In this document: positions 4,107 through 53,746 of the stretch, piece by piece
Numbering within the stretch: the first letter of the stretch is position 1
Layout of the letters: each line of letters opens with the position of its first letter
Source: a virus
Direction: 5' to 3' (one strand)
IMG/VR virus record: IMGVR_UViG_3300017963_000207
Coordinates: 1 to 64,000 of that record
Length of the DNA stretch: 64,000 nt
The notes under the pieces: generated by a model
The model's database searches: none
Seen by the model: only the letters and a program-made list of their open reading frames with translations
Told to the model about the DNA's origin: nothing
Position numbers and translations under genes: made by a program

Positions 4107-6374
4107 TCAGGAGGAGGTCTGCACTACCTCGGGCAATACCGTAACCGAGTCTGGAGTCTTGGTGATGACCTCAGACTCCTCAATGACCAGGTTGCCGTCA
4201 GAATCCAGCTTATCCGTCTGCAAGGTGCTGCTCAGTAAAGTAGTGTAGCCAGAGATCGTCACGTTGGCAAAGCTCACGCCCTCGACCGCTAGGATAACGT
4301 CCATCAGATCTGAGACGTAGAGGGACACCCCAAACTCCCTGTCCTTCAGCACGCCATCAATCGCAGTCTCCCCCGCTGTGCGCACCTGCTCAAGGGAGTA
4401 TCCGATATCCACCCCAACACGAGCGGTGATCCACGGGTATACCAGGAACTTCCCGCCCGAGACCACCTCCACGGTCTGCGTGACCTCCTTCCTAGCCGTA
4501 AGGTAGGTCTCAAGGGAGTCTATGAGCCCGTTGCTGGGCTCGGCGTAGAAGCCCGCCGCATCACGCGTGAGAACGGGGACCGTTACCAGGTTCGCCTTGC
4601 AATCGGCTGACAGGATCTTGTCCAGGTGCTCGTCTATGGTATCCAGAGCCAGCGTAACCGTCGCCGCAGCGTTGTTGGCCAAGGCCGGGTCGATGGTATC
4701 CGCAACGTCCGAGAGGGTTACCTGGAAGCTCTTAAACAGCCCTGTGCTGTCGGACGGCGTGGTGCTGTCGTAGTAGCCAATGACCACGTCCCCAGCAGCC
4801 CGCGCATCCTCCAGGCTCTTGAGGTAGCTGTCCGCACCGTCCAGCTGGATAGCCGTCTTCGAGAGCCCTATCTTATCTACCTCGTCCGTGATGAGGCCCC
4901 CGGCCGCCACCTGCGAATCCGCCGCTCCTCGCATCGTGGCGGTCTGAGAGATAATGTCATCCTGATGGCCGTCGATAGTGTCCAGGTAGACCTTCAAGGC
5001 ATCCTTGGTTGGGTCTGTCAGCTGATCTGCCCCCGTAGCGATCGCGTCAATAGCCGCCTTACCATCCGTCACCTCCACCTTGGCGGCATTAGCCGACACG
5101 TCCACATCCAGGGACAGGTTGCGGTTGCCGCGAATGCCCGAGATGATAGCCGTGTTGTTGGTGTCGATGGTGTTCATCGACGTGACGACGTTGTCGAGCG
5201 CCGTCGTGATGGTTGAGGAGTAGGAGAGCAGCAGGTTGAGCAGTCCCGTGGTAGCTGTGGTGGCCGCTGTTATCTCACCACGGATGATATCCGTCGCGCC
5301 CTCCAGGGCGCTTGTGATCTCCAGGATAGCGTCCTGCAGTACCAGGTCCGTCGCTGCCGACCGCGAGGAGATAGCCTTGGCCACCGCCACACGCCCATAT
5401 ACCGGGTCTGCATAGGAGCCCGCCAGCGCGTCGTAGTCCTCCCCGGTGACCGCCACCCGGCGGGAGTTAAACACCCGCCCGGCAAATGCCTTAGCGCGGT
5501 CGATGCTCTCCAGGTCATCACCGCCCGAGCTCTTGGCGCCATTGTTGATGGTCAGGTCAACCGTCTCCCCCACCACCACAAGCGGCGTGACCACGTCCTG
5601 GATCGTATCCTTGGCCACAATCCCCGCCTTCCCCGCAGTCGCAACATAGGTGACCTCAATCGAGGCGTTGGTAGCAGGGATATTGCCAGCCGAGCCGTCC
5701 CCAAAACGAAGGGTTGGAGGATCGTCGTTGTAGCCCACCTCGTACTGGTCGGTCTCGTCGAAGGTGAGGAAGTCCTCCTCATCCCAGCTCGCCCCATCGA
5801 CCTTCACCTCCACCGAGCCAGAGGCCACATACCGCTCATCAGGGACACGGCTCAGCTCGAAGACCTGGTTTGCTGTTCCGTCTGAGGTGAAGGTCTCAGT
5901 CGTGGTCTCACCCTCGTACACAGGGATGAGCTTGGATGTTCCTGCCGTCTGCTCTGCCGGGGAGAACTCGACGGCCTTTCCCGCCTCAAAGATAAGGTCG
6001 TTAGGCCCCTGAAACTGTAAGCCCTCGGTGATCTCCACCGTGAAGGTCTTCGCCACGGCCACACTGACCGTTAGGTCCGTGGAGGACGCCACCGCACCGC
6101 CCATTTTGTAGCCCAGCTGTCGACAGATACGCGAGACAGCCCTCCGGGTCCTAGCGGTCTCCAGGTAAACCTCAGTGGCTCGACGGTCGAGGTAGAAGCT
6201 GAGCGAGTCTAGACCAAAAGCGATGAGGTCCAGAAGCATCATCCCTAAGCTGGCCAGCGCGAAGTCGTTGTAATAGGCCGCAAACTTGACCTGCAGGCGC
6301 GCGCGGAGGTCGTCAACGTGGGAGTCGAAGTCGTAAGAAATAAAACGGACGCGGTTAATCGACGCGGTGGCCAT
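4107..6374 (-). CDS. Baseplate wedge protein, gp6/gpJ-like (Baseplate_J)
   Basis: 755 aa. The N-terminus (SYDFDSHVDDLRARLQVKF then LGMMLLDLIAFGLDSLSFYL) is characteristic of T4 gp6/P2 gpJ-type wedge proteins, which form the iris around the hub. A long helical insertion (about 340-620) separates the N-terminal region from the C-terminal part VGVDIGYSLEQV...GVSFANVTISGY. It follows the gp25-like gene, as in T4-type and P2-type clusters, though an endonuclease gene is inserted between them. The ATG at 6374 sits inside the endonuclease C-terminus with GGAG 7 nt upstream. The family is larger than P2 gpJ (~300 aa) and similar in size to T4 gp6. Confidence 0.9.
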   Translation of the reverse strand: MATASINRVRFISYDFDSHVDDLRARLQVKFAAYYNDFALASLGMMLLDLIAFGLDSLSFYLDRRATEVYLETARTRRAVSRICRQLGYKMGGAVASSTDLTVSVAVAKTFTVEITEGLQFQGPNDLIFEAGKAVEFSPAEQTAGTSKLIPVYEGETTTETFTSDGTANQVFELSRVPDERYVASGSVEVKVDGASWDEEDFLTFDETDQYEVGYNDDPPTLRFGDGSAGNIPATNASIEVTYVATAGKAGIVAKDTIQDVVTPLVVVGETVDLTINNGAKSSGGDDLESIDRAKAFAGRVFNSRRVAVTGEDYDALAGSYADPVYGRVAVAKAISSRSAATDLVLQDAILEITSALEGATDIIRGEITAATTATTGLLNLLLSYSSTITTALDNVVTSMNTIDTNNTAIISGIRGNRNLSLDVDVSANAAKVEVTDGKAAIDAIATGADQLTDPTKDALKVYLDTIDGHQDDIISQTATMRGAADSQVAAGGLITDEVDKIGLSKTAIQLDGADSYLKSLEDARAAGDVVIGYYDSTTPSDSTGLFKSFQVTLSDVADTIDPALANNAAATVTLALDTIDEHLDKILSADCKANLVTVPVLTRDAAGFYAEPSNGLIDSLETYLTARKEVTQTVEVVSGGKFLVYPWITARVGVDIGYSLEQVRTAGETAIDGVLKDREFGVSLYVSDLMDVILAVEGVSFANVTISGYTTLLSSTLQTDKLDSDGNLVIEESEVITKTPDSVTVLPEVVQTSS

Positions 6375-7392
6375 TAGATACTCCGGTAGTCAGCGCGGTC
6401 ACCTCGTCCCAGCCCCGCTGGAGACGTGAACGGACGACGCGATGGTTTATGCCTAGGCGCTCGGCCCACTCCTGAAGACACCGAGTCTCCCCACCCATAG
6501 CGATGAGACGATTGTTCCGCCGGTTGCGCTGCTGTGTCCGCGAAACGGCCCACCGGCAATTGTCTGGAGAGTAGCCCAGATCCGCGTCAATACGATCCAA
6601 TGAGTGCTTCGCAGAGGGCCTAGGACCCACATCCCCTAAAAAACACTCAAACGACCCCTCCCACTCCGAACATACCTGGACACCGCGACCACCGTACAGA
6701 GGAAAGTCCTTGTTGGTGGGGTTGAGGCAACGGTTCCGCATAAACAACCACGCCCGATATTCAGCTGGAAACTGCTTCCTGACCGAGACGCTTCGCTCGA
6801 AGGTTCCGTGTAACGGAGGGGTCTCTAGAGCCTTTTCAACCGACCACCCCGCTTGGAGCCTAGCCGCTACAGTAGTCGGAGCGAGCCCCGCCTCCCGAGC
6901 CAGCTGAGACAAACACTTGACCTCGCCCTTATACCTAAACTCTCGGTTAGACCTTATGTTCTGCGTCTGCTGTCTCCGAGAGGCCCACCGACAGTTGTCC
7001 GGCTCGTAGTGACCCGCAGAGTCAATACGGTCCAGCGTGGCCTCTGGATAGGGCTTGCGCCCCATGTCCGCCAAAAAGCCCTCGTAGGAGGCCGCCCAAC
7101 GTTCTGCTACGCACACGCGCCCGCGAGACAGCTTGGCTCGGCGCTTCATGAGCTGCCAAGCCCGATACTCGGGGACATCGAAAGACTCCCCATGCTTTCT
7201 CATCCCCTGACCGACGGTGATACACCCGCAGGACTGCGTATTACCGCTCCGCAGGCTGTCCGTGCGGACCTCCAATCTAGCGCCGCAATCACACAGTACT
7301 TCCCAAGCCGTACAAGGTCCCTGGTTGGGGGCGCGCTCCCCTACAAGTAGCCTACCAAACCGCTGCCCTGTAAGGTCCAACCGCGGAGGCAT
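6355..7392 (-). CDS. Free-standing homing endonuclease with duplicated HNH-type modules
   Basis: 345 aa. Two copies of a phage endonuclease module are visible: AEYRAWLFMRNRC with SLDRIDADLGYSPDNCRWA (second copy), and PEYRAWQLMKRRAK with TLDRIDSAGHYEPDNCRWA (first copy). Each copy is followed by an arginine-rich recognition segment with a helix-turn-helix-like stretch. The N-terminus has two Cys pairs (CDCGARLE, QSCGCITV), possibly zinc-binding. The gene is inserted between the gp25 and gp6 wedge genes and overlaps the gp6 start by 20 nt, so the gp6 ribosome site is inside it. The internal duplication suggests a single-chain enzyme with two half-sites (inference). Confidence 0.85.
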   Translation of the reverse strand: MPPRLDLTGQRFGRLLVGERAPNQGPCTAWEVLCDCGARLEVRTDSLRSGNTQSCGCITVGQGMRKHGESFDVPEYRAWQLMKRRAKLSRGRVCVAERWAASYEGFLADMGRKPYPEATLDRIDSAGHYEPDNCRWASRRQQTQNIRSNREFRYKGEVKCLSQLAREAGLAPTTVAARLQAGWSVEKALETPPLHGTFERSVSVRKQFPAEYRAWLFMRNRCLNPTNKDFPLYGGRGVQVCSEWEGSFECFLGDVGPRPSAKHSLDRIDADLGYSPDNCRWAVSRTQQRNRRNNRLIAMGGETRCLQEWAERLGINHRVVRSRLQRGWDEVTALTTGVSNGHRVD

Positions 7393-7443
7393 GGCTACTG
7401 CACCCCCACGTACCGAACCCTGTTTACGCTAGCTGTCGCCATC

Positions 7444-7868: not shown

Positions 7869-8246
7869 CTATGCCGCCGCGGCGAGGTCATCCGCAGGGC
7901 AGGTGGGACGCGAGGGCAGCGCCGGAAGCGACGGCAACGCTGGCAGACCAGGCAGCGAGGGGAGCCCCGGCAACGCCAAGCTAGGGAAGGGAATGGACGG
8001 GAAAGGTAGATCTGTCGTGGGAAGCGAGGGACGCGGCGGGAGGCTCGGAATAGCTGGCAGACCAGGCAGCGAGGGAAGCCCTGGCAACGCCAGACTAGGG
8101 AAGGGAATGGACGGGAACGGGAGGTCTATCGTAGGAAGCGACGGTAGCGGCGGGAGAGACGGTATTGCAGGAAGCCCTGGCAGCGACGGCAGCCCCGGCA
8201 AAGCTAGAGACGGGGGAAAGGGCGGCAGCGCGCAAAGAGAGGCCAT
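7869..8246 (-). CDS. Leu/Pro repeat protein beside the tail spike gene
   Basis: 125 aa, built almost entirely of LPSLPxLP-type repeats in a 38-residue period with an internal FPSIPFPSLALPG stretch and a short non-repetitive C-terminus (CPADDLAAAA). Proline every three residues predicts an extended, polyproline-like rod, not a globular fold. The start follows the spike gene by 3 nt, and the frame is retained through the repeats. Position between spike and gp25 suggests a baseplate or spike-associated element (inference). The complementary strand reads as Gly-rich collagen-like sequence, but that is a shadow of the same repeat. Confidence 0.65.
   Translation of the reverse strand: MASLCALPPFPPSLALPGLPSLPGLPAIPSLPPLPSLPTIDLPFPSIPFPSLALPGLPSLPGLPAIPSLPPRPSLPTTDLPFPSIPFPSLALPGLPSLPGLPALPSLPALPSRPTCPADDLAAAA
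7941..8168. repeat. 114-bp tandem repeat, two near-complete copies
   Basis: The sequence beginning TGGCAGACCAGGCAGCGAGG at 7941 recurs at 8055 with few changes, giving a period of 114 bp (38 codons). A decayed third copy follows to about 8230. It encodes the Leu/Pro repeats of the gene at 7869-8246. Confidence 0.9.
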
Positions 8247-8249
8247 CCA

Positions 8250-9221
8250 CTAGGTCCTCACCTTCACCGACCGCGAAGCCATCGTAGGCGGAGGAGGCGC
8301 CACCGGAGGTGATACTGGAGTCCCTGTAACAGGCACCACGATGTTGTGCACGTGTGCCGCGAGCCACGGTAGGAGCATGTCAGCTATCGCCACCCCCAAG
8401 GCCGCTGTATCGCCAAGGAACACCCCCCCACCCTTCAGGTTGATGTTGGGAGCGTTGATGTTGACGTTCTTGCTCGCAATGATGTTGACGTTGCCCGCAG
8501 CGTCCAACGAGATAGAGCTAGCCGGCGAGGCTGCATCCACCATCGAGATACCCGAGGGCCCGAGAGCCACATAGCCGCCACTCGCGTCCTGCAGTAAGAT
8601 CTCCTTCTTCTCAGTGTTGATGGTTATCAGCGCCCCGTCCGCATCCCGCAGCTGGATGGACTTCTCGTCAAAGGACAGCATGGAGAACTTGTCCCCAGCG
8701 GCTATCTCCTGAGCCACCTTGTCGGGGTCGGTCTTCGCCTCATCACCGTCAGCAATCTTGTGCCAGACCAGCCGCACCTTCTCGTCCCCTGCGGTGTCAT
8801 CAAACATCAGCAGATGCCCCGCGCGCGATCGGAAGCCGCGCTTCTGCGGCTTCCCGTCCACATAGCCTAGCTCCTTTGGCACTGGCGACGCCTTGTCGCT
8901 ATCGCTGAACCAGCCTCCCACATAGCCTTTCGGGGCACTCGGGTCCCCATTATCGAAGAACACGCGAACCACCGAACCGACCAGCGGGGGATTGAACCAC
9001 CCAAAGCGATCTCCGGTCACGTCCACCATCGGCGATACCCACACGTCCACCGCTGTCTTCTCATCGTGCCCTACCTGCGGGCAGCTGATCTGAATACGAC
9101 CCCGCTCCTTGGGGTCGTCATTACGCATCACAAGCGCCCGATAGGTGCTGTAGTACACCCGCAGCACATCCTCGATACCGTAGGCAATGACCGCCTCACG
9201 AAGCTCTTCCAACGTCATCAT
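8250..9221 (-). CDS. Baseplate central spike, gp5/gpV-like
   Basis: 323 aa. An N-terminal OB-fold segment (residues ~20-125, RGRIQISCPQVGHDEKTAVD, then GSVVRVFFDNGDPSAPKGYV) is typical of gp5/gpV/VgrG spikes. A linker and a C-terminal triple-stranded beta-helix-like region follow, with short INI/NIN strand repeats (NVNIIASKNVNINAPNINLK, ~240-260). The tip (VHNIVVPVTGTPVSPP) resembles spike ends that bind a PAAR-type tip. No lysozyme insertion is visible, so it is a simple puncturing spike. It lies between the hub gene and the Leu/Pro gene. Confidence 0.85.
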   Translation of the reverse strand: MMTLEELREAVIAYGIEDVLRVYYSTYRALVMRNDDPKERGRIQISCPQVGHDEKTAVDVWVSPMVDVTGDRFGWFNPPLVGSVVRVFFDNGDPSAPKGYVGGWFSDSDKASPVPKELGYVDGKPQKRGFRSRAGHLLMFDDTAGDEKVRLVWHKIADGDEAKTDPDKVAQEIAAGDKFSMLSFDEKSIQLRDADGALITINTEKKEILLQDASGGYVALGPSGISMVDAASPASSISLDAAGNVNIIASKNVNINAPNINLKGGGVFLGDTAALGVAIADMLLPWLAAHVHNIVVPVTGTPVSPPVAPPPPTMASRSVKVRT

Positions 9222-16488: not shown

Positions 16489-17271
16489 ATGCGGAAGTAC
16501 CGTAGCACCCCCAAGCTTACAGAAAAACAAGTAGAAGAGATACGAAGAAGGGCCGCTGAAGGAGAGAAGGGTAAGGACCTTGCGGAGAAGTTTAGTATAT
16601 CTCGTGGAGCCGTGTCCCTGATACTCCGAGGTCTCACCTGGCCAGACGTCCCTGGCCCGCTCAAGCGCGTCCGACCACGTACCCAAACCGACACGAAACG
16701 CGAACGTGTCGAGCTCTGGCGCCCTGTCCCTGGGTACGAAAACCTCTACAGTGCCTCGAACCTCGGCAACATCCGCATCGAGGTCACACGCCACAACATC
16801 CGCGCGGGTACACACCTCCGACAGACCCGCGACCGCGACGGCTACCTGACTGTCACCCTCACTGACACGAAGAGCCCCAGGGCATGTCGCGTGTCGCTGC
16901 TGGTCCTCGCGGCCTTTGTCGGACCCCGCCCCGCGGGCCTGGAGACCAACCACAAGGACGGTGATCGTCAGAACAACGCGTTGAGCAACCTGGAATACGT
17001 AACCAAGGCTGAGAACATCAAACACGCTGTCGAGGTGCTCGGTAGTGACCGCAAGGGGATCAACAACCCTTCGGCGAAGCTTGGCGAGCCGGAGGTCTTG
17101 GAGCTGCGCCGCCGCGCGGCCACCGGCGAACCCTACACCACCCTTGGAAAAGCCTTCGGCATCACAAGCGTGATGGCCCGGAAGATAGCCACCGGCGAGT
17201 GCTGGGAGCACGTGGGAGGCCCCCGGACAACCAAGCGCAAGCTGGGGCGGCCGCCCCAGAGGCACCCCTAA
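16489..17271 (+). CDS. HNH homing endonuclease with NUMOD4 domain, the only plus-strand gene
   Basis: 260 aa. An N-terminal HTH (~8-50, KDLAEKFSISRGAVSLILRG) is followed by a NUMOD4 motif (LWRPVPGYENLYSASNLGN, ~77-95), an HNH_3 core (NHKDGDRQNNALSNLEYVT, ~164-182) and a second C-terminal HTH (~200-240). It is inserted between the tape measure and chaperone genes in the opposite orientation to all others, so it needs its own promoter. The 35-nt divergent gap and a weak AGAGTTAG ribosome site are all that is visible. Typical intergenic homing element. Confidence 0.9.
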   Translation: MRKYRSTPKLTEKQVEEIRRRAAEGEKGKDLAEKFSISRGAVSLILRGLTWPDVPGPLKRVRPRTQTDTKRERVELWRPVPGYENLYSASNLGNIRIEVTRHNIRAGTHLRQTRDRDGYLTVTLTDTKSPRACRVSLLVLAAFVGPRPAGLETNHKDGDRQNNALSNLEYVTKAENIKHAVEVLGSDRKGINNPSAKLGEPEVLELRRRAATGEPYTTLGKAFGITSVMARKIATGECWEHVGGPRTTKRKLGRPPQRHP

Positions 17272-19765: not shown

Positions 19766-20479
19766 CTACCCACCAAGGGTGATCTCCTCAAACATATCAA
19801 CCGCGAGCTCTAGCTCCGCGACATGGACAGCGGATGAGTCGCCAGCCATGTCGGTACCTGCCTTGTACCGGACGGGTATAGCCCCCTGCAGCACATAGGC
19901 CCGCGCAGGGACGCGAATAGCAAACTGAAAAGGGCCGACGTTGGTAGTAAGGGCTGTTGCGGCCGCCAGGCCCACCGAGGCAGCTACCCCTGCTGCCAGC
20001 TGGATGGGGTTGACCCCTCCAACACCCGCGGCCATCACCGCCAGCCCGGCCACCCCGCCCAGCTCCGTCACCGCTACCAGGGGGTTGTCACTTATCCCCG
20101 AGCTAGCAAAGAACTGGATGAGCATCAGCGTGCGCCGAGGCGTAGGACCGGCATCCCCAAGCCCAATGGGCGCAAACGACGTGCTCGTCATATCCCCCGA
20201 GATTGAGGCTATGATCCAGCGCCAAAAGTCGTTGTCGTAGAAGAACACCCCGCGGCTAAGAGTGATGTTGCCGATGCTCCCCCGCCTCACCACCTTACGC
20301 GTAAAGTACCAGTTGCCCTCGTTTACGTCCTGGGTCTCCAGCGATATCTCGGGCGCCGTTATCGCCGAGAAACCAAACAGAGGCGTAAGTATGGGCATAC
20401 CCATCGTGTCGCTCGGCCCGACATCCATAAGCCAGAAGCAGTGGCTCTGTAAAGGATCACCGAATTTAGTCCTAGGCAT
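19766..20479 (-). CDS. Tail tube protein, T4 gp19-like (paralogue 1)
   Basis: 237 aa. FWLMDVGPSD, PLFGFSAITAPEISLETQDV and NITLSRGVFFYDNDFWRW match the phage_T4_gp19 tail tube family. An Ala/Gly-rich insertion (VAGLAVMAAGVGGVNPIQLA, ~125-165) enlarges it. The first 13 codons repeat, with synonymous changes, a fragment at 21370-21420, showing that this gene was split by the LAGLIDADG endonuclease gene upstream and given a new 5' end. ATG at 20479 overlaps the endonuclease stop; GAGGGAGAG precedes it. Confidence 0.88.
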   Translation of the reverse strand: MPRTKFGDPLQSHCFWLMDVGPSDTMGMPILTPLFGFSAITAPEISLETQDVNEGNWYFTRKVVRRGSIGNITLSRGVFFYDNDFWRWIIASISGDMTSTSFAPIGLGDAGPTPRRTLMLIQFFASSGISDNPLVAVTELGGVAGLAVMAAGVGGVNPIQLAAGVAASVGLAAATALTTNVGPFQFAIRVPARAYVLQGAIPVRYKAGTDMAGDSSAVHVAELELAVDMFEEITLGG

Positions 20480-21353
20480 GTCTCTCCCTCAGCTCCACGA
20501 AACGCCAATACTTCCGACCTCCCCGGATGCTACTAGGAACACCACCCCATAGCCACCTACCCAAGCCCACCGCTTGTGACCCATACACCCCAACCACGTA
20601 TACCGGAGGCCCTCCTGGGCGCCGCACGGCCTCTTGTAGATTCCCACGCGTCCCTGTCACCTCCCGAACCACTCGCAAAAGCTCCTCCATGAACAGCCTA
20701 CTGGCCGATGTCGCACGAAGCGTCACCCTCCTCTGGCCATTTGCGGTGCTCTCACTCACACACCCATCCGCCTCCCAGAAACCCCGCACGAAGTGAGACC
20801 TCAGCCCAGAGGGGAGGCTTCCGGGCCACCGCATGTCGTGAGTCTTAGCAGGCCCCAACCCAAAAACCTCCAAAGACTGCGCGAAGCGCACATTGTGAAA
20901 ACGCACGGCATGGCAGCCCCCCGTTAAACACCTAATGCGGTGGTCCGCACCAAGGACGGCACAGACCTTCTCACACACATCCAGGTCTCCCGCCAGCTCC
21001 ACCCCGTAGACCCGCCCCTTACGTCGACACACACAACCGTCGCCGTAAAGAAGACCGAGAACCCAGGCCCCGGCTGGTGTAAGAGCCCCTCGGAAGTAGC
21101 CCTCGTTCATGTGGTAGCGCCGTCGCCGGTCCCCGTCCCGAGAGGCATTGCGAGCCCCCGTGCGATACGCACGCCGAAGCCCCGCACTCTTCGAAAGCTT
21201 TATCCCCGCTGCACGGGCCCACGACCGCACAGCCCCAGCCGACGCCCCCACGGAGGCCGCCACCTCCACGGGAAAGCCTCCCTCCTGCAGCAACCGCACC
21301 GCCTGCTCCCTAACCTCGACAGGATAGCCCATAGCCAACTGTAACGTGGCCAC
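20472..21353 (-). CDS. LAGLIDADG homing endonuclease inserted in the tail tube gene
   Basis: 293 aa from a GTG at 21353 (an ATG at 21332 is possible). An N-terminal transposase-type HTH (~10-55, REQAVRLLQEGGFPVEVAAS) is followed by two LAGLIDADG helices: AWVLGLLYGDGCV (~97) and HFVRGFWEADGCV (~187). The two copies indicate a monomeric enzyme. Its 5' flank holds a remnant of the tail tube start and its 3' end overlaps the regenerated tail tube start, so the target was about codon 13 of that gene (inference). Mobility by homing. Confidence 0.88.
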   Translation of the reverse strand: MATLQLAMGYPVEVREQAVRLLQEGGFPVEVAASVGASAGAVRSWARAAGIKLSKSAGLRRAYRTGARNASRDGDRRRRYHMNEGYFRGALTPAGAWVLGLLYGDGCVCRRKGRVYGVELAGDLDVCEKVCAVLGADHRIRCLTGGCHAVRFHNVRFAQSLEVFGLGPAKTHDMRWPGSLPSGLRSHFVRGFWEADGCVSESTANGQRRVTLRATSASRLFMEELLRVVREVTGTRGNLQEAVRRPGGPPVYVVGVYGSQAVGLGRWLWGGVPSSIRGGRKYWRFVELRERHA

Positions 21354-21369
21354 TACCCTGTATCAACAT

Positions 21370-21420
21370 CTAAGGGCCAACATGAGCTTGTAACGGGTCC
21401 CCAAACTTCGTCCTGGGCAT
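21370..21420 (-). pseudogene. Orphaned 5' fragment of the tail tube gene
   Basis: ATG with GAGGAGCT ribosome site; reads MPRTKFGDPLQAHVGP then stop. The first 11 residues are identical to the intact tail tube protein, yet 8 of those 11 codons differ at the third base. It may still be translated as a 16-aa peptide. It marks the original start of the tail tube gene before endonuclease insertion. Confidence 0.8.
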
Positions 21421-21512
21421 AGCTCCTCGACGTTCAAACGCGTAAGAGGCCACCAGCGCGAGGCGCAGGTAGCCTCACGACCGGACACACATTGACCCCG
21501 CTAACGCTGCGA

Positions 21513-22094
21513 CTACGCCGCAGCGTTACCCCGCACCGTCATACGCTCGACGGTTATGGTCATCTCAGCAACTGCGATGTCGCTGGAGGTTGCATCCAGG
21601 TCAGAGGAGGGCTTGCAGGAGGACGGAAAGCAATTCCACAGCTGGTATTGCTTCGCCCCTACCAAGGAGTCCACGTCAACCACCGTCGTCCCCACAGACG
21701 GTAGGTAATCACTGCGGTGGTAGTGGTTGATAGTCACATCCCCGCGGTAATTAGCCCCCACCGCCGCCTCGGAGCCCTCAACGCATGAGAGGGCCCAATC
21801 CCACATAGCCGTATCCAGCCGAACCACGCCCCGGCTGAGAGTGCAATCACCCACCGTGGGGTTGCCGGGGAACTTCATCGGGTAGATGTACGTGCCCTCC
21901 TTATACTCGACGGCCTCGATCGAGATATCCGGAATAGAGCAGGCTGTGAAGCCCGCCTGCGGACGTGCCTGGGTCCCTGCAGGCTCCTCGGGACCGCTCC
22001 GCGTGCCGGGGACAAGTGGGTCCACCTGCTCTGAGTTGGCCACGGTCACGTGGAACCGCATATTGTGTAGGAAGTCTGATGATGCTGGTCGCAT
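21513..22094 (-). CDS. Tail tube protein, T4 gp19-like (paralogue 2)
   Basis: 193 aa. The family pattern recurs: MRFHVTVANSEQVDP, FTACSIPDISIEAVEYKEGT, then DCTLSRGVVRLDTAMWDWAL. It is shorter than paralogue 1 and ends ELTV-like (AVAEMTITVERMTVRG). Two tube-family genes side by side may make tube and tail-end (terminator or initiator) rings; which is the major tube is unknown. The leader contains a CTACCTC-A-GAGGTAG hairpin. Confidence 0.85.
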   Translation of the reverse strand: MRPASSDFLHNMRFHVTVANSEQVDPLVPGTRSGPEEPAGTQARPQAGFTACSIPDISIEAVEYKEGTYIYPMKFPGNPTVGDCTLSRGVVRLDTAMWDWALSCVEGSEAAVGANYRGDVTINHYHRSDYLPSVGTTVVDVDSLVGAKQYQLWNCFPSSCKPSSDLDATSSDIAVAEMTITVERMTVRGNAAA

Positions 22095-24269: not shown

Positions 24270-24596
24270 CTACTCAACGCGTATCAGGCTGCTGAAGCTC
24301 GACGTATGGTGTGGCTTGGCAATAATGGTATCCAGCCGCTCCGGCCACTGCTGGTTAATCCGGCCGTTCGCCTTCAGGTGCTTGGCTATCTTGGCCGCCT
24401 CCTCGGGCGAGAAAGGCTCATAGCGCGTGATATCCGCGTACTTCCGGTTGATGCGCTTGACACTCACGGAGCGATCACCCACCAGCTTGCGGATATCCTT
24501 CCGGAGCTGCGCCACGTCTGCCTTCGTCGCCCAGCTCAGCGCCTCACCCAGCTCCCGCCGAATATCCTCAAGCAGCCTGTTTAGCTCTCTGTTCAT
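24270..24596 (-). CDS. Small helical protein, paralogue of next upstream gene
   Basis: 108 aa, starting MNRELNRLLEDIRRELGEAL. The 125-aa gene upstream starts MNRAINHLLEQVLAELSEAE, a clear paralogue at the N-terminus. Both contain KRINRKY/YKRIASR-type basic segments. GAGGAAGCG precedes the ATG. The leader repeats 25 bp of the endonuclease 3' end. Function unknown. Confidence 0.6.
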   Translation of the reverse strand: MNRELNRLLEDIRRELGEALSWATKADVAQLRKDIRKLVGDRSVSVKRINRKYADITRYEPFSPEEAAKIAKHLKANGRINQQWPERLDTIIAKPHHTSSFSSLIRVE

Positions 24597-24635: not shown

Positions 24636-25013
24636 TCACCTAACAATACTAAATCCTGCAGCGCGCGATCGCGAACGCCGCGCAACAGGCGTGAACGGTT
24701 TCACATAGTCTCCTCCCCCCCGCGCAGCCCGCGCCCCCTCAAACTCTAGACTCTTCCCACCAAACCACTCCGCAACCGTCCGCGGATAACGCTTGATAAG
24801 GCTACGTATGCGCGCCACTGGTAGGGGACAGCGAGACGCTATCCGCTTGTACTCCATCGAGGACGGCGCCTGACCACCATAAGCGACACGGATGAGGCGC
24901 TTAACCTCGTCCTCAATCTCCTGAAGGTCCTCAACGTCCGCAATTAGAACCTTCTCCGCTTCGCTAAGCTCCGCCAGCACCTGCTCCAAGAGATGGTTGA
25001 TCGCTCTGTTCAT
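24636..25013 (-). CDS. Small helical/basic protein, tandem paralogue
   Basis: 125 aa. Helical N-terminus similar to the 108-aa gene, and a basic C-terminal half (FTPVARRSRSRAAGFSIVR) that may bind nucleic acid. GAGGTAGGAAG ribosome site. Probably duplicated together with its leader; the repeat at 24602/25021 marks the unit. Function unknown. Confidence 0.6.
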   Translation of the reverse strand: MNRAINHLLEQVLAELSEAEKVLIADVEDLQEIEDEVKRLIRVAYGGQAPSSMEYKRIASRCPLPVARIRSLIKRYPRTVAEWFGGKSLEFEGARAARGGGDYVKPFTPVARRSRSRAAGFSIVR

Positions 25014-25020
25014 CTTCCTA

Positions 25021-25045
25021 CCTCACGCAGCCTTTAACGACGCCA
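25021..25045. repeat. 25-bp direct repeat, copy 2 (endonuclease 3' end)
   Basis: Second copy of the repeat at 24602. It covers the stop codon and final six codons of the endonuclease gene and the start of the 125-aa gene leader. Confidence 0.85.
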
Positions 25046-26207
25046 GCTTATCACGGAACGCCGTCACTCGCTCCGCCTGGCGATGATCAGCATACCACGG
25101 CTCTACGAGCCCCATACCCACCATCTCGCCCGGCCCTAGCACCTCCAGCGGCAGCTCGGGGTACTGCATCGCCAGCAGCTCCAGCCGCTCCTTCGTCGGA
25201 TCGTCCAGCCACCCGTGCACCTCAACGAGCTCTAGGAGCTCCCCCTCGGGGCCCAGCACGAAGAAGTCAGGCGTGTACTTGCGCCGGCGCCCGAGAGGGT
25301 AGCTGTGCTGCTCATATTCCCAATCCTTCCCCTCCTCATCGAGCTTCTTGGCGTACGCCACCTCCCAGCTGCTCTTAAACAGCCACCGGCGCCCCTTGCG
25401 GTCCACATGCGGGGTCACCCGGTACTTGCTCCAGCCCGTGCGTATGCGCGCGCCCGCGCGCTTGAGGGCATCACCTATACAAGCTGTCGACACACCGTAG
25501 AGCTTAGCGAGCGCCCGATAGTCCTCACCTCCCTCGTACAGCTTCACGGCCTCAACTACCTGCGCCTCACTAAGCTTCAACCGCTTAGACTTACGCTTCA
25601 ACCCAAGCTCCTTGACAGCCGCGGAGATGTCCCTCGTCGACACCCTCAACAGCTTGGCCATGGCCCGAGAGGTTAGGTCCTGCTCATACAGCTCGGCCAC
25701 CTTTGCCTGGAGCTGCGCCTTAGTCAACCCACTGCGATTGCCCTTACCCCTAACCTTCTTACCTGCGCGACGCACAAGCCCAAGAATCGTGTCGTTATCC
25801 ACCCCCAGGGAAGACGCGATCTCGTAGGAGCCCTCACCCTTCACATAACGCGCGACAGCTTCGCGCTCTTGCGTGGCCGACAGCCCCGTAGCCTTTCCAG
25901 GCTTGCGCACAACAACCCCCTCCCGCCGCAGGAGACTGTTCACCGCGGTCTTGGACACCCCATAGGCGTGCCCTATCTCCTCAGTACTGTCCCCTCCTCG
26001 GTACAGCTCCACAATCTCACACCGCTGCTGCTCCGTAAGCGCCAGCTGACGTCCAACCCGCAGAGTGACCCCAGAAACGCGAAGGAGCTTGGCGATGGTG
26101 GGGTAGCTGACCCCATATAGCTCGCCAAGCTCCTTGCCTGTCTTACCGCCCTCATACAGGCGGACAATGTCCGCCTGCTGCTCCGCCGTCCATTCCTTTT
26201 TGCTCAT
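25023..26207 (-). CDS. Endonuclease with five tandem HTH units and a PD-(D/E)XK-type domain
   Basis: 394 aa. Five helix-turn-helix units of ~48-50 residues follow each other (QADIVRLYEGGKTGKELGEL; CEIVELYRGGDSTEEIGHAY; EAVARYVKGEGSYEIASSL; KVAELYEQDLTSRAMAKLL; VEAVKLYEGGEDYRALAKLY). They precede a nuclease domain: FKSSWEVAYAKKLDEEGK, then RKYTPDFF ... ELVEVHGW, where PD and E-V-H fit a PD-(D/E)XK core with His in place of Lys. The repeats would read a long DNA site. Free-standing homing enzyme inserted below the sheath gene. Two TTGCAA-centred palindromes lie directly upstream of its start and may be an operator or its target. Confidence 0.82.
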   Translation of the reverse strand: MSKKEWTAEQQADIVRLYEGGKTGKELGELYGVSYPTIAKLLRVSGVTLRVGRQLALTEQQRCEIVELYRGGDSTEEIGHAYGVSKTAVNSLLRREGVVVRKPGKATGLSATQEREAVARYVKGEGSYEIASSLGVDNDTILGLVRRAGKKVRGKGNRSGLTKAQLQAKVAELYEQDLTSRAMAKLLRVSTRDISAAVKELGLKRKSKRLKLSEAQVVEAVKLYEGGEDYRALAKLYGVSTACIGDALKRAGARIRTGWSKYRVTPHVDRKGRRWLFKSSWEVAYAKKLDEEGKDWEYEQHSYPLGRRRKYTPDFFVLGPEGELLELVEVHGWLDDPTKERLELLAMQYPELPLEVLGPGEMVGMGLVEPWYADHRQAERVTAFRDKLASLKAA

Positions 26208-26255: not shown

Positions 26256-29200
26256 TCAGGCCGCGAGGGTTGCTTGCTGGAAGCGGAATCGGACGAATTC
26301 TGCTGGTCTGTTTGGCGCGGCGCCGACATCGATGATGACCTGACCCGCCTCGATGGTGGAGGTGGTGTTGTTGGTATCATCTACGATGACGAAGTAGGCT
26401 TCTGACGGGCTATTGCCGTAGAAGAGGCCACCGGTGTAGAGGCCATTCATAAAGCCGTCGATCTGCGCCTTGATACGAGACCACAGGCCGGCGCCGTTGT
26501 TCTCGAAGACGATCCACGCCGTCGCGTTGTAGATGCTCTTCTCCATGAACATGAACAGGCGTCGCGCGTGGACGTAGCGCCACTCAGACTCCTGCGCGAT
26601 GGTCCGACAGCCCCAAACGGCGAGGCCGGTCTGAGTCGAGCTGATGAGCGGGTTGATCTTGTTTGGATAGACGTAATCGCGCTCGCCCTGGGTTGAGATG
26701 TACTCCAGGCCGGTCAGCCAGTTAAGTGCCCCGTCGACGGTACCGGCTGGAGCCTTACCGACGCTCTTGCTAGAGTCGGTGCGGGCGTAGATACCTGCCA
26801 CGTGACCCAGAGGCGGCATCGTGAGCGTGCGGCCATCAGCGAGGGGGTCGGCGATCTTAATCCACGGCCAGTACAGCGCGGCCCACTTCGAAAAGCGGCC
26901 GAGGTCGTACCTGAACCAGTCGACGGCCTCCTGCGGGTCAGAGCCTACGGGCACCGTGATAATGATGAAGCGGTCGCCCCCGGAGGGGAGGTAGGAGCGA
27001 GACGCGGCATAGTCCAGCAGGTCACCGGTCACGGTCACATCACCGGCAAAGTCGGGGATGATAACCTGGAGCAGCTCATCGACCTCGTCGAGAGCGTAGA
27101 GCCCCTGCTTGGTCGATTGCAGCAGCGGATTGGTGAACTGCGACCGCGAATAGGTGCTCGTGGTGAAGGTCCCGTCGCTTCCGGCGAGATAGTGGACCAC
27201 GGGTGTGGCCGCCATGTCGGTGAAGCGCTTGTTGGCGTCCCCAAACAGCTCCTCGCGCTCCGTCTCCTCGGGCTCGGCGTAGTAGGTAATCTTGATCAAG
27301 GACCCACCAGCTAAGTTGGCAGATGTCTTGAAGTTAGCATAGCCTGTGGAGTAACTGATGGTATTGGGGTCGAGGTCCTCACCGCCAGCGGTCACAATGG
27401 TGGCATAGGCCGGGTCCACATCACCCGTCAGGTTGCCCGAGCCGTCATCTGTGATCTCCAAAGCTGCCTGGTCCGCTCCACCCGACATCCCCGAGGTCGC
27501 CCACAGGACTATAGTCGCGATGACCGAGGTAATGGTTTGGTTGCCCGCCGACGTCTCCTGGTCATGATAGAGGTCAACCTGTCCTGCCGTCAAAGCACCA
27601 GCGTAGATAAGCAACGTCGCGCCCACACCATTGATGCCTGCTGCTATCGAGTCGCGAACATCGTCCGCTGTAGTGTCCGCGGAGATATCGATCTCCACGT
27701 TTCCTGGAGACGGGGTGTGCGTACCCGTGACATCGAACTCAAAGGTGGTCGGAGAGTTGATCCCATCGTTCAGAGTAAAGGTGTCGCCATCCGCAAAGTT
27801 GGTCTGAACGTCCGTGGTGATCGTCCCGGTAGCTACTGCGCCTGCCGCAGTAGCAGTGATAGTGACAGCGCGCGCACCGAGATCATACAAGGCAACATAG
27901 GTAGGCCGAAGCAGCGTCCCGCCAAAGGTGCCGTTGTCCGTGGTCGTCTCATCGTCGCCGCCGCCGAAGTTGTACTCGACCTGGAGGCCGTCAAGGGAGC
28001 CGGGATAGACGTCGTTGCCAGGAGTGTTGACTGAGATCAGGTCCGAGAGCTCATTGACCACATCGGGGAAGTACTCGGTGGAGGTACTGTCGGTGAAGTC
28101 CAGAGCCTCGTAGGACTCGGTAACCTCATAGGCCCCAACAGCGTCGTTGTACTGCAGGACCGAGAAGTCGTGCCGGCTGTAGGACTGCGTCGAGACGGTG
28201 TAGTAGTCGGCGTTGCCAGTAACCTGCACCTTCATCTCGTTGGCCCAGGCCCCGTTGGAGATGGGGTCTAGGTTCCACGCCTGATAGTAATAGGTTGCCA
28301 AGATGGGCGCCCCATCGTGCGGGGTAGATGCTGCAGTCGTGGTGAAGGAGTAATCCCCATCATTGTAGTCGATGGTCCCCGCGCTCGCGATTGAGCCGAT
28401 GACCACATCGTTGAGAGCCCCAGCGCCATCGTCGCTGATCTGCCACGTGGTCGTGGTGGGCGTAAAGTCCCCCGTGAGATTGGTACCATCACCAGCAAGA
28501 ACAATCCGCTCCGAGCCCGCAAAGAGAACCGAGCCGAAGCCTGTGGCAAAGTCAAACACGCAGACAGACCCAGCTGTGCTGGTCACCGTGCCCACAGTGC
28601 CCGAGGTAGGAGCAGGCACCGTCAGAGTGGACGGTGTAGACCCATCCGGATCAAAGTTGAGCACGAAGTCCGCGGACGGATCGACCACGAACTGCTCCAT
28701 ATCCCCTTCGGTCAGAGCAGGCAGCGAGGCGGGGTTAACCCTAAATTCATACGCCTGAACGGGAGTGGTCCCATCCTGCGTGACATCGCCCGAGTCGTCC
28801 CGGTTGCGCAGATTCTCAGTGGTAACAGCCGTACCAGCCGCACGCCACCGGATATTGATGCCCACGTTGGTCCCTGTCGGGCCGTTGTAGGCAATGATGG
28901 TGGTGTTCAGCGCAGCGCCTCCGGCGGGCGTGAAAACTCCCGTGGACGAGACATAGGAGAACGTGGTCGAGCTGCCATCACCCTCATTCATCCAGCCGTT
29001 GTAGACCTTGCTCATAATGTCGGCGTCTGCCTCGACACTGTCCGAGGGGACGACGCGGACCACGAAGCAGCGCTTGCCGCCGTTGGCGAAGAAGGCCAAG
29101 ACGGAGTGGCCGGTGAAGGTGTTAGCGTTCAGCTCGCCAAACTTGGAGTAGAACTGATCGACGCTGGTTACTAGGGTGGCCTCATCAGTCGGACCCTTGG

Positions 29201-29306
29201 GGGTAAAGCCGACGATAGCCATGTTTGATGTTGAGACCGCCTGCACCACCTGGGTAGCTGACGGAACCTCCTCGATGAAGACTCCTGGACTTAGATACTC
29301 AGCCAT
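26256..29306 (-). CDS. Tail sheath protein (large form)
   Basis: 1016 aa, well above T4 gp18 (659 aa). The N-terminus YLSPGVFIEEVPSATQVVQA and GFTPKGPTDEATLVTSVDQF are sheath hallmarks. The C-terminal core (NWLTGLEYISTQGERDYVYP; ALYWPWIKIADPL; RLFMFMEKSIYNATAWIVFE) is the polymerising domain. Between them (~120-700) lie inserted beta-domains, including two with the DDGxG...YxxGxxxF...YY pattern also seen in the capsid protein, and one with an AIN-type unit as in the fibre gene. These would decorate the tail surface. The start overlaps the endonuclease stop by 8 nt. Confidence 0.95.
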   Translation of the reverse strand: MAEYLSPGVFIEEVPSATQVVQAVSTSNMAIVGFTPKGPTDEATLVTSVDQFYSKFGELNANTFTGHSVLAFFANGGKRCFVVRVVPSDSVEADADIMSKVYNGWMNEGDGSSTTFSYVSSTGVFTPAGGAALNTTIIAYNGPTGTNVGINIRWRAAGTAVTTENLRNRDDSGDVTQDGTTPVQAYEFRVNPASLPALTEGDMEQFVVDPSADFVLNFDPDGSTPSTLTVPAPTSGTVGTVTSTAGSVCVFDFATGFGSVLFAGSERIVLAGDGTNLTGDFTPTTTTWQISDDGAGALNDVVIGSIASAGTIDYNDGDYSFTTTAASTPHDGAPILATYYYQAWNLDPISNGAWANEMKVQVTGNADYYTVSTQSYSRHDFSVLQYNDAVGAYEVTESYEALDFTDSTSTEYFPDVVNELSDLISVNTPGNDVYPGSLDGLQVEYNFGGGDDETTTDNGTFGGTLLRPTYVALYDLGARAVTITATAAGAVATGTITTDVQTNFADGDTFTLNDGINSPTTFEFDVTGTHTPSPGNVEIDISADTTADDVRDSIAAGINGVGATLLIYAGALTAGQVDLYHDQETSAGNQTITSVIATIVLWATSGMSGGADQAALEITDDGSGNLTGDVDPAYATIVTAGGEDLDPNTISYSTGYANFKTSANLAGGSLIKITYYAEPEETEREELFGDANKRFTDMAATPVVHYLAGSDGTFTTSTYSRSQFTNPLLQSTKQGLYALDEVDELLQVIIPDFAGDVTVTGDLLDYAASRSYLPSGGDRFIIITVPVGSDPQEAVDWFRYDLGRFSKWAALYWPWIKIADPLADGRTLTMPPLGHVAGIYARTDSSKSVGKAPAGTVDGALNWLTGLEYISTQGERDYVYPNKINPLISSTQTGLAVWGCRTIAQESEWRYVHARRLFMFMEKSIYNATAWIVFENNGAGLWSRIKAQIDGFMNGLYTGGLFYGNSPSEAYFVIVDDTNNTTSTIEAGQVIIDVGAAPNRPAEFVRFRFQQATLAA

Positions 29307-29856
29307 TACTCACCTCCTCCAGCACCGCACGACCGGAGTCAAACTTCTTCACGTTACTCAACTTCGAGCACTGCTCACGCAGGTGCTCCACCTTGTCCGG
29401 GAAAAGCCTCAACCACCCTTTACGACCCAACAGCTCATCAGTCGCAAAGACCAGGATGGCGCGCCAAATCTCAAAATCCTCTACCTTCTTGCTCTGTAGA
29501 GGGAACCTCTCGAAGTGGGGCACGACCGAAGCCACAAGCTCCCTTGGGTCTCGCACCTGAAAAAGGAACTGCGGGTTGACCTGCTTCCTCTTCCTATTGG
29601 AGGGGTACTTAGCAGTGTCTCGATAGGTTATCCGACCGCACCCAAAGTACTCCTTCAACTTTAAGAGAACCTCTGCGTCATCCGCTCGCAGCGCTACCGC
29701 GTAGCGGATGTCCAGCTCCACACAATCGACCAGGGAACCCTTCTTGGTGCGCTTGGGTCTGAAGTTCAGGCCCGCATAGAAAGTGGCCTCCCCATCGGAA
29801 AGACCCGTCACCCACCACCCATATATGGGCGGTGACCGCTCGGCTTTGTCTGCCAT
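29299..29856 (-). CDS. Free-standing LAGLIDADG homing endonuclease
   Basis: 185 aa. YGWWVTGLSDGEATFYAGL (~12-30) is a LAGLIDADG_1 motif (TGLSDGEA). VDCVELDIRYAVALRADD, YFGCGRITYRD, then FQVRDPRELVASVVPHFERF match the usual strand and helix order. Only one motif is visible, so it probably acts as a dimer. It sits directly upstream of the sheath gene, whose ATG overlaps its end. Spread by homing into this locus. Confidence 0.9.
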   Translation of the reverse strand: MADKAERSPPIYGWWVTGLSDGEATFYAGLNFRPKRTKKGSLVDCVELDIRYAVALRADDAEVLLKLKEYFGCGRITYRDTAKYPSNRKRKQVNPQFLFQVRDPRELVASVVPHFERFPLQSKKVEDFEIWRAILVFATDELLGRKGWLRLFPDKVEHLREQCSKLSNVKKFDSGRAVLEEVSNG

Positions 29857-38526: not shown

Positions 38527-39291
38527 CTAGCTCTTCCTCCCACGCCGACGGAGAGCACTTAGCGGCCTCTGAGCTTTTCCCGACTTGCGCCTCTCGGCCA
38601 CACGTTGCCGCACCGCCTCCAGACGCTCCTGGGCGCGCAAAACTCCCTCGTCTACCTCCAGCCCCTCGACCTCAAACTCGTCGTCGTCCTCATCGTCCAT
38701 CTCCCCAAGCTCGTCCTCATCATCGTCGAACTCGGTCACGGGAGCTTTCATCTCGACGTCTAGCTCGTCGTCGTCCTCATCGTCCATCTCCTCCAGCTCC
38801 ACGCCGGTTATATCGCTATAGAGCTGCAGCGCATCCAGGAGGTCCGACATGTAGCTTTCAAAGGTGCGCTTCACCTTGCGCTCAGGCACCGGGCCGCGGT
38901 TCTTCTCCAGCCAGAGCGTCCGATCAGCAGCCTTCTCGGCAAGCTGCTCCATCAGGTGGCCCGCCTCCACCAGCGTGTCCTCGTCGAGCGTGGCCCCCAT
39001 CTGCGCAAAACGCTCGGACAGGGTGGACGCGATCACAGCCACGTTGGCAAAGCCCTTGATACGCTCCCGCTCGGCCGGAGGCCGCACCTTGTCGACAACG
39101 TCTGCGACATCCTCCAACAGACGGCTGGCACGACGCTCTACCGAAGGCGTAGTAGGCCGCTGCCCGCGCTTGCGGCGCAGCGCCCCAGACCTCTCCGGCG
39201 ATGCGTCCTCGACGCAAACCTCCTCCTTTCGGATAAGGCCAATCGCCTGCAGGTCCTCCTCCAACGATGTAATCACTACTGGCTTTCGCAT
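38527..39291 (-). CDS. Head-core-region protein, paralogue A (MRKPVVITSLEEDL family)
   Basis: 254 aa from the ATG at 39291 (ribosome site GGTAGGATC); an upstream in-frame ATG at 39504 would run through the neighbouring gene. It shares MRKPVVITSLEEDLQ, KGFANVAVIA-TLSERF and LLDALQLY-DIT with the next upstream gene. It carries an acidic double repeat (EEMDDEDDDELDVE / GEMDDEDDDEFEVE) and a basic end. The place between portal and protease suggests a prohead core or portal-assembly protein. Confidence 0.7.
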   Translation of the reverse strand: MRKPVVITSLEEDLQAIGLIRKEEVCVEDASPERSGALRRKRGQRPTTPSVERRASRLLEDVADVVDKVRPPAERERIKGFANVAVIASTLSERFAQMGATLDEDTLVEAGHLMEQLAEKAADRTLWLEKNRGPVPERKVKRTFESYMSDLLDALQLYSDITGVELEEMDDEDDDELDVEMKAPVTEFDDDEDELGEMDDEDDDEFEVEGLEVDEGVLRAQERLEAVRQRVAERRKSGKAQRPLSALRRRGRKS

Positions 39292-39325: not shown

Positions 39326-39784
39326 CTAGTCCTCGTCCCAATCCACCCCACCAACATCACCCGCATCTGGCCCGGCGGTGATGTCGTTGTATAGCTGCAG
39401 CGCGTCGAGAAGCTTGGCCATGAACATCTTGAATAGCTGGTTGATCTCCTCGTCGTCCGTCGGTCCCTGCTCCTGCAACGATAGCGCCTGCGTAGACGCC
39501 TCATCAGCCAGGTCCTCTAGAACAGCGCTAACCTGGCATAGCGCCTCCTCACCAAGCTCGCGGCAAAAACCTCCGAAACGCTCGGATAGAGTGCCCGCGA
39601 TCACAGCCACGTTGGCGAAGCCCTTAACCACCTCATCATCCCGACTAAGCGACTTGCCCATTGCGTCAGGGTAGCTACTCTCCCCCAAAACCTCTCGCGC
39701 CTCCACCTTCGGGTCCTTCCGCGGCAGAAGACCGATAATCTGGAGGTCCTCCTCAAGCGAGGTGATTACAACTGGTTTTCTCAT
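39326..39784 (-). CDS. Head-core-region protein, paralogue B
   Basis: 152 aa, starting MRKPVVITSLEEDLQIIGLL, a tandem duplicate of the 254-aa gene without the long acidic/basic C-terminus (it ends GGVDWDED). Shared helical core (KGFANVAVIAGTLSERFGGF; MAKLLDALQLYNDITAG). Unknown role; probably prohead core. Confidence 0.7.
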   Translation of the reverse strand: MRKPVVITSLEEDLQIIGLLPRKDPKVEAREVLGESSYPDAMGKSLSRDDEVVKGFANVAVIAGTLSERFGGFCRELGEEALCQVSAVLEDLADEASTQALSLQEQGPTDDEEINQLFKMFMAKLLDALQLYNDITAGPDAGDVGGVDWDED

Positions 39785-52648: not shown

Positions 52649-52838
52649 CTCCACCTCCGTCCTCAGATGCACACAAAGGGCACCCTGGTGAGCCGCAGCA
52701 CTCTCGCACCGCAAGACTCTCGGGGTCCTCCTCGTACCAGCTGTCACCACAATCCAAGCAGCGCCACTCAAAGCGCAGCGGGGCAACGTACTGCACGCCG
52801 CCGGTCTTCTCTCGACGCTTGTGCTCACAACTCACCAC
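52641..52838 (-). CDS. 65-aa double zinc-binding protein
   Basis: GTG start. CEHKRREK, CLDCGDSWYEED, then ECCGSPGCPLCASEDGG: at least two Cys clusters. The start overlaps the terminase paralogue stop. Small regulator or nucleic-acid binder by type. Confidence 0.65.
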   Translation of the reverse strand: MVSCEHKRREKTGGVQYVAPLRFEWRCLDCGDSWYEEDPESLAVRECCGSPGCPLCASEDGGGDG

Positions 52839-53746
52839 ACCACTCCAGCAAGGTCCCGAAGGCTCCCCTCCAGGTCCCGCTCAAACTCGCCCCTAAGCTC
52901 AGCAGGAACATCCACCCAACCAGCTCGAACGTCGTCCACCCTCAACGAGAGCACCTCGTCCTCCTTCACGATCTTAGGGGGCTCTTCCCCAGACCCCCGT
53001 CGCACAAAGAAGCGCGCTGAGCCAAAGCGCTCCAGCTGAGAATCCCACAAGGCATAGTCCCGGACAAGCACAGCAGGATCATCTACAACCTCGCGCAGAC
53101 GCTGAGTCAGAAAGGCGCCCCCATCCCGCTTTGACGAGGTAAGAAACACCTTCCCGCGACCGGCCGCTCCAAAGCGCGACCTAACACGGCGGCGCAGACC
53201 CAAGTAGACCTTTCTAAGATCCTTGGCCGTAAACTTCGAGGTGACGGGAGCCTCCACTAGCACTCCCAACAAGTTGCGCCCTAGACTAGTCCCCGAGGAC
53301 AGCGCGCCGGCCGTTACACAGATGTCCGAGGGGAATCGCAGCTCGCCTGGTCGCTCCTCGTGAGGAAACGTCTCACAGAAGTAGGGGCTGCTCCGGAGCA
53401 TGCGCGCAACACCCCCGAGGATGACATCAGACGCAAACGCCGGGCTAACGCTAAGACACCCCAGCGAAACGACTGACCCCGACCCAAGCCCGAGAGACGC
53501 CTGCGGGTCTCGGAGGCGCGACAGCTCGTAGAGCATACGGCAAAGAGCCGCCGACGCGGCAAACGTCTTCCCCGAGCCCAGTCCCCCCGTGAATATCACC
53601 TCGTCGAACGGCCCGCGGAAAACCTCCTGGAGGTCCGACAGCCACTGAGGATACAAACCCACACCGCCTAAGTAACGCTCGTCCCTAAAGAACGTTTCAA
53701 CGTCCACCAGCTCCTGCTTGTAGGTACCTTCGCTGTCAGCCCTCAC
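52832..53746 (-). CDS. Truncated terminase-like ATPase paralogue
   Basis: 304 aa, aligned over its length with the ATPase half of the large terminase here: TGGLGSGKTF/TGAIGGGKTF (Walker A), RMLYELSRLRDPQASLGL/RMLYELSCLRDPHASLGL, VLVRDYALWDSQ/VMVRDYALWDSK, FERDLEGSLRDLAG/FERDLEGSIRDIAG. It ends there, with no nuclease domain and no intein. Walker B reads GVLVEAP where the terminase has GALVDES, so the catalytic Asp-Glu pair is altered. Probably binds ATP but may not hydrolyse it; decoy, regulator or decaying copy (inference). GTG start with GGAGGAGG. Confidence 0.82.
   Translation of the reverse strand: MRADSEGTYKQELVDVETFFRDERYLGGVGLYPQWLSDLQEVFRGPFDEVIFTGGLGSGKTFAASAALCRMLYELSRLRDPQASLGLGSGSVVSLGCLSVSPAFASDVILGGVARMLRSSPYFCETFPHEERPGELRFPSDICVTAGALSSGTSLGRNLLGVLVEAPVTSKFTAKDLRKVYLGLRRRVRSRFGAAGRGKVFLTSSKRDGGAFLTQRLREVVDDPAVLVRDYALWDSQLERFGSARFFVRRGSGEEPPKIVKEDEVLSLRVDDVRAGWVDVPAELRGEFERDLEGSLRDLAGVVW

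Follow-up and report, generated by a model that had tools for sequence, protein, structure and literature searches.

The 64-kb stretch of DNA analyzed here (hereafter the window) comes from an uncultured tailed phage and quite likely contains homing-endonuclease cassettes, which insert at the 5' end of essential virion genes and bring a replacement start along. Putative endonuclease genes were recognized at the starts of essential virion genes in at least two cases, namely the tail tube and the baseplate wedge gene, and probably in a third one, the tail sheath gene (Table 1). In all three, the endonuclease gene lies on the same strand as its target and provides it, within its own 3' end, with a new ribosome site and a new start codon. 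The endonuclease frame terminates inside this new start, at a stop codon to which the start contributes a third-position T, and the target gene is then intact, beginning with the same or nearly the same protein written in other codons. The native start remains upstream as a short open frame at the tube and wedge genes and is apparently fused to the endonuclease at the sheath gene. Since the endonuclease stop is located within the new start and the new ribosome site within the endonuclease gene, at least the first codons of the target must move together with the endonuclease; the codons of the tube and wedge fragments would not create the endonuclease stop.

Table 1. Positions of the target genes, native start fragments and putative endonuclease genes in the window.
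Feature	Position	Strand	Description
tubeA, upstream tube paralogue	21513..22094	-	PF06841, E 1.5e-18
Tail tube gene 5' fragment	21370..21420	-	MPRTKFGDPLQAHVGP, then stop; 16 codons; GAGGAG just ahead (about 21423-21428)
Free-standing LAGLIDADG endonuclease gene	20472..21353	-	293 aa; GTG start; N-terminal helix-turn-helix
Intact tail tube gene tubeB	19766..20479	-	237 aa; PF06841, E 4.9e-11; start resupplied, synonymously recoded
Baseplate wedge gene 5' fragment	7395..7442	-	MATASVNRVRYVGVQ, then stop; 12-codon wedge start
Free-standing HNH endonuclease gene	6355..7392	-	345 aa; two HNH-like repeats; phrog_3377, E 3.6e-86
Intact baseplate wedge gene	4107..6374	-	resupplied start MATASINRVRFISYD; phrog_219, E 5.8e-32
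LAGLIDADG_1 endonuclease gene	29299..29856	-	185 aa; PF00961, E 2.2e-11
Tail sheath gene	26256..29306	-	resupplied start ATG GCT GAG; phrog_23, E 6.9e-53

On the minus strand, the tube locus reads tubeA, start fragment, LAGLIDADG gene and tubeB. The fragment from 21420 (ATG CCC AGG ACG AAG TTT GGG GAC CCG TTA CAA GCT CAT GTT GGC CCT TAG) and the intact tubeB from 20479 (ATG CCT AGG ACT AAA TTC GGT GAT CCT TTA CAG AGC CAC...) both begin with MPRTKFGDPLQ, as an initial annotation of this DNA had noted, and a comparison codon by codon confirmed that 8 of these 11 codons differ, at third positions only; codons 12 and 13 encode A versus S and H in both copies. As 20 of the 90 possible single changes in this stretch are synonymous, eight synonymous differences out of eight would arise by random mutation with a chance of about 6e-6, so that neutral decay of a fresh copy does not account for them. 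The ribosome site ascribed to the fragment is present as well, although unusually close, ending 2 nt before the ATG. In a screen of the window and about 55 relative loci for duplicated N-termini, which gave 90 matches as compared to 43 in the reverse-strand control, the tube match over 12 residues scored 57, the control maximum being 32. Moreover, an assembly artefact is disfavored by two further IMG/VR records, in which the DNA of the tube region recurs with 100% identity across 12,711 bases. A shared, synonymously differing N-terminus alone is not diagnostic, since the tandem paralogues at 39326-39784 and 38527-39291 agree in their first 15 residues, use different codons at 8 of these 15 positions, and have no endonuclease gene in between. 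The codon usage of the new tube start lies at the 1.4th percentile of gene-body stretches, a value that carries little weight because other starts of this phage are equally unusual.

The tube endonuclease gene matches PF14528 (E 3.9e-9) and phrog_4645 (E 5.8e-25), and two LAGLIDADG-type motifs with acidic residues (GAWVLGLLYGDG and SHFVRGFWEADG) are found in its product. It starts 16 nt past the stop of the fragment and ends inside the new tube start with an overlap of 8 nt, where recoding of CCC AGG to CCT AGG creates TAG in the endonuclease frame. Stop codons close both the fragment and the LAGLIDADG frame, leaving no in-frame splicing element, and no group I or group II intron matched the insert even at E 5. 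The gene is a predicted free-standing one, located in neither an intron nor an intein, in line with the initial proposal that an endonuclease can reside inside an essential gene without either.

The wedge gene, found by the same screen with a score of 46, allows the best-informed comparison. Here, the ATG of the HNH gene lies 2 nt past the stop of the fragment, and at its other end this gene overlaps the new wedge start by 20 nt; its stop is located there, as recoding of GTA/GTC AAC to ATT/GTT AAC gives TAA in the endonuclease frame. An HNH homologue with 69% identity to that of the window occupies the same wedge site in the relative G007 (IMGVR_UViG_3300017963_000239), whereas the relatives L104 and L105 feature wedge genes without an HNH gene, i.e., empty alleles; the wedge proteins of G007, L104, and L105 are 73, 72, and 70% identical to that of the window. 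Codons 8-11 read AGR GTN MGG TAC in L104 and L105 as well as in the two fragments, and CGY GTY CGT TTT, including one Tyr to Phe exchange, after the HNH gene in both carriers. Over these codons, the two new starts agree with each other at 10 of 12 nt, and with the native-type sequences at only 5-7 of 12. In both fragments, 14 of the 15 nt directly ahead of the insertion are those of an empty allele (window versus L105, G007 versus L104), as compared to about 7 of 15 in both new starts, and at codons 8-12 the native remnant is closer to the relatives than the inserted copy. Over the first 36 nt, the new start shows 10 mismatches to L104, which is ordinary for this gene (p 0.55), and the wedge claim therefore rests on codons 8-11. 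Between window and G007, the HNH genes share 67% and the wedge genes 70% nucleotide identity; the two carriers may represent two insertions, or one old insertion with a loss in L104.

An alternative option, which we consider unlikely, is a duplication of the start within the own lineage followed by recoding in place, with nothing imported; selection could have acted against a cleavage site restored by the duplicate, or against identical direct repeats, through which the insert can be deleted. Such a scenario would fit residue 3 of the wedge protein, which is lineage-specific: fragment and new start both have T in the window and both have L in G007, so that either the donor shared residue 3 or the start was recoded in place. 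It would also fit the G007 changes, which crowd at the insertion (7 of 12 nt in codons 8-11 versus 3 of 21 in codons 1-7), and the near-identical repeats over the first 41 nt at the locus L069 (see below), as expected soon after a duplication. In the window, however, changes are spread across the entire start in both genes; in either carrier, endonuclease and new start must move together, as the frame of the former terminates within the latter; and the occurrence of CGY GTY CGT TTT in two phages, Tyr to Phe included, points to a common cassette. The initial annotation had offered import from a diverged relative and recoding against cleavage as alternatives. This interpretation was supported, but the wedge gene shows that both are largely one thing, because its new start overlaps the endonuclease frame and must travel with the endonuclease, and because its codons 8-11 depart in the same manner from fragments and empty alleles in two phages. 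The layout itself proved real at the tube gene, but its restriction to this gene was too narrow, as it recurs at the wedge and, abbreviated, at the sheath.

It is rather improbable that the fragments are instead functional leader peptides, selected to couple or limit endonuclease translation. The wedge fragments of window and G007 do keep 11 of 12 residues despite differences at 13 of 36 nt, and the endonucleases start just past the fragment stops at both wedge and tube, but two recent independent insertions account for this preservation equally well, the G007 fragment is nearly the empty allele of L104 (identical at 33 of 36 nt), and coupling needs no particular peptide sequence.

Relatives of the tube locus were reached through the sheath gene and through an alignment of tubeB relatives, which retrieved 44 viral loci, two identical records among them. 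In 40 relative loci, several of which are near-duplicates so that the independent lineages are fewer, tubeA lies directly upstream of tubeB, mostly with a spacing of 20-270 nt and with no endonuclease in between; L040, L065, and L069 have wider gaps containing other genes. The tube LAGLIDADG gene is optional, being absent at the same site in relatives, and from these 40 empty sites it follows that its insertion is derived. The tube starts of the relatives are too diverged to favor either the fragment or the intact copy as the native one (9 versus 10, with 5 ties). That the fragment is left over from a third tail tube paralogue with a conserved N-terminus, the reading which the initial annotation had set against its own, is hardly credible: identical N-termini that differ synonymously do occur in other paralogues of this phage with no intervening endonuclease, but no additional tube gene separates tubeA from tubeB in any of the 40 loci, residues 4-7 (TKFG) are highly variable among relatives, so that their identity implies recent shared ancestry, and the wedge gene has the same layout without such a paralogue family nearby. 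Direct searches with the tube and LAGLIDADG proteins returned only identical copies of the same virus, and a scan of host genomes yielded one short contig and no host. In G007, some 44 kb separate tubeA (at 3.4 kb) from tubeB (at 48.0 kb), which follows a tRNA gene, so that the tail module is broken at the same tubeA-tubeB junction.

The sheath, which was found by inspection, is the weakest of the three cases, as it is based on a short stretch, with only 8 nt of the native start left. The LAGLIDADG_1 gene begins at CTGTAGGAGGTAACACACC ATGGCAGA, the new sheath ribosome site (GGAGGAGG) lies inside its 3' end, and the sheath restarts at 29306 with an overlap of 8 nt, in which GCT GAG gives the TGA stop of the endonuclease. 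Across the genome of 112,880 bases, the 10-mer CTGTAGGAGG has a single occurrence, namely at the start of the LAGLIDADG_1 gene, and it constitutes the sheath ribosome site in L015 and L016, both of which are without endonuclease and have the same upstream gene. Judged from this sequence, the LAGLIDADG_1 gene apparently took over the native sheath ribosome site and start. Close to the sheath, two different small proteins (24270-24596 and 24636-25013, minus strand) have a common N-terminal tag of about 19 residues (MNKRINRLLEGIRRELGEA), which is found at four starts in L016 (12830-15000, plus strand) and is reminiscent of capsid-targeting sequences. The gene beside the sheath (25023-26207, minus strand) is preceded by a repeated CCTTGCAAG motif; its product combines several helix-turn-helix repeats with a C-terminal domain that shows a weak match to Phage_endo_I.

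For the cassette as proposed here, the enzyme would cut the endonuclease-less allele near the insertion point, and repair from a carrier would copy the endonuclease gene plus the overlapping recoded start. The fragment would then represent the original start of the recipient, retained both as left arm of the homing site and as translation start of the endonuclease. The rebuilt gene would regain the cleavage site unless recoded, and new starts would therefore keep the protein and not the codons; in other words, recoding would prevent renewed cutting, which the recoded start probably escapes. As a second possible reason, recoding avoids long direct repeats, which would allow deletion of the insert. 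The recoding also predicts the recognition site, namely the differing third positions and, in the wedge gene, AGR GTN MGG TAC, as well as self-immunity.

An independent case of the same layout was observed at tubeB of L069 (4182-5022), where a start fragment is followed by a 218-residue ORF of no known family and the intact tubeB; fragment and intact start align over 106 nt with small deletions. The insert gave no family match and a predicted structure too poor for interpretation (mean pLDDT of 36), and it may represent an undescribed mobile gene. In the cultured Pectobacterium phage CB7, the ribosome site of the DNA polymerase gene is occupied by an HNH gene, which overlaps the polymerase start by 23 nt. 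A comparison to PcCB7V (L138, L141) showed a left flank with near identity, followed by a diverged allele of the polymerase 5' end, which supports the import of a diverged 5' end with the endonuclease, though there is no fragment. Among 12 endonuclease loci of known phages and 50-kb stretches of CB7, ICP1, and SP-15, no second arrangement of fragment, endonuclease and intact gene was found. The tape measure gene of L058 was considered as a fourth case and rejected, its match score of 26 being close to chance: a LAGLIDADG relative (8078-9100, 33% identical) lies just ahead of this gene, and the candidate start fragment upstream (MGYGFS versus MGLGFS) is near chance level.

Further mobile elements and duplications were noted apart from these loci. 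The T4-like portal gene (40813-44976, minus strand) appears to hold two full inteins with LAGLIDADG domains (PF14890 and PF14528, two stretches each), and the terminase gene (45716-49126, minus strand) contains an insert of about 445 residues resembling a degenerate intein (weak PF14890) with no recognized endonuclease domain. A 304-residue paralogue of the terminase ATPase half (52832-53746, minus strand; about 49% identity) is without this insert and ends ahead of the nuclease half. On the opposite strand, a NUMOD4/HNH endonuclease gene (16489-17271, plus strand) lies between the baseplate hub and tape measure genes. The tandem paralogues mentioned above (minus strand) share MRKPVVITSLEEDLQ as their N-terminal 15 residues, possibly a targeting signal, and are about 40% identical beyond. 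In L067 (5600-7100), a tandem duplication spans the tubeB 3' end and the start of the next gene, with MKLDHVIENLKS at 5686 and 6477 and the first copy running into another protein.

The arrangement would allow an endonuclease to enter an essential phage gene without intron, intein or split protein, by bringing along a substitute for the part that it displaces. Two, probably three, cases with different nuclease families in one 64-kb window suggest that this is no one-off, and the pattern is probably under-recorded, as gene callers tend to drop short fragments and may misplace starts. More tentatively, start capture could be general among phage homing endonucleases, an extension that we regard as possible rather than likely: the unrelated LAGLIDADG_3, LAGLIDADG_1, and HNH families would have seated themselves independently at the start codons of late virion genes, being expressed from the native ribosome site and carrying the recoded start as built-in immunity, and repeated homing would swap the starts of virion proteins among phages.

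Free-standing homing endonucleases are described for T4-like phages, where, e.g., mobE of Aeh1 splits nrdA (PMC2988022). As in that set, intronless endonuclease genes lie here beside or inside essential phage genes, with host-gene promoters and overlapping frames. The T4 examples are, however, mostly located between genes, and mobE in nrdA as well as mobA in the topoisomerase gene split the protein in two (PMC2988022), whereas here it stays whole because the start is resupplied. The HNH gene of CB7 is similar in that it lies at the ribosome site of an essential gene, overlaps its start and is followed by a diverged 5' end, but it was inserted upstream of the start codon and, unlike in the window, left no fragment. 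In the literature searched, mostly outside subscription journals, no phage precedent for a resupplied start was found. Mitochondrial introns of Tremella carry N-terminal duplications, so that N-terminal gene parts are likewise duplicated and exchanged via an inserted mobile element (PMC7315562); in contrast to these, no intron was detected here, and the inserted element is a gene of the operon with a reading frame that extends into the new start. The nearest precedent are the mORFs of fungal mitochondria, reported for atp6 of Allomyces and for atp6, atp9, cox2, and nad3 of Glomus, which replace the 3' (C-terminal) end of a gene with the endonuclease downstream, and for which expression was tested (PMC3630166). 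There, too, an endonuclease resides in an essential gene with no need for an intron or intein, a foreign, largely synonymous copy of the displaced end restores the gene in frame, and the native end is left as a remnant matching relatives (PMC3630166). Unlike in the mORFs, replacement affects the 5' end in each of the three window cases, with ribosome site and start codon taken over, and the targets are phage virion genes. The proposed phage arrangement is the mirror image of the mORF trick in fungal mitochondria.
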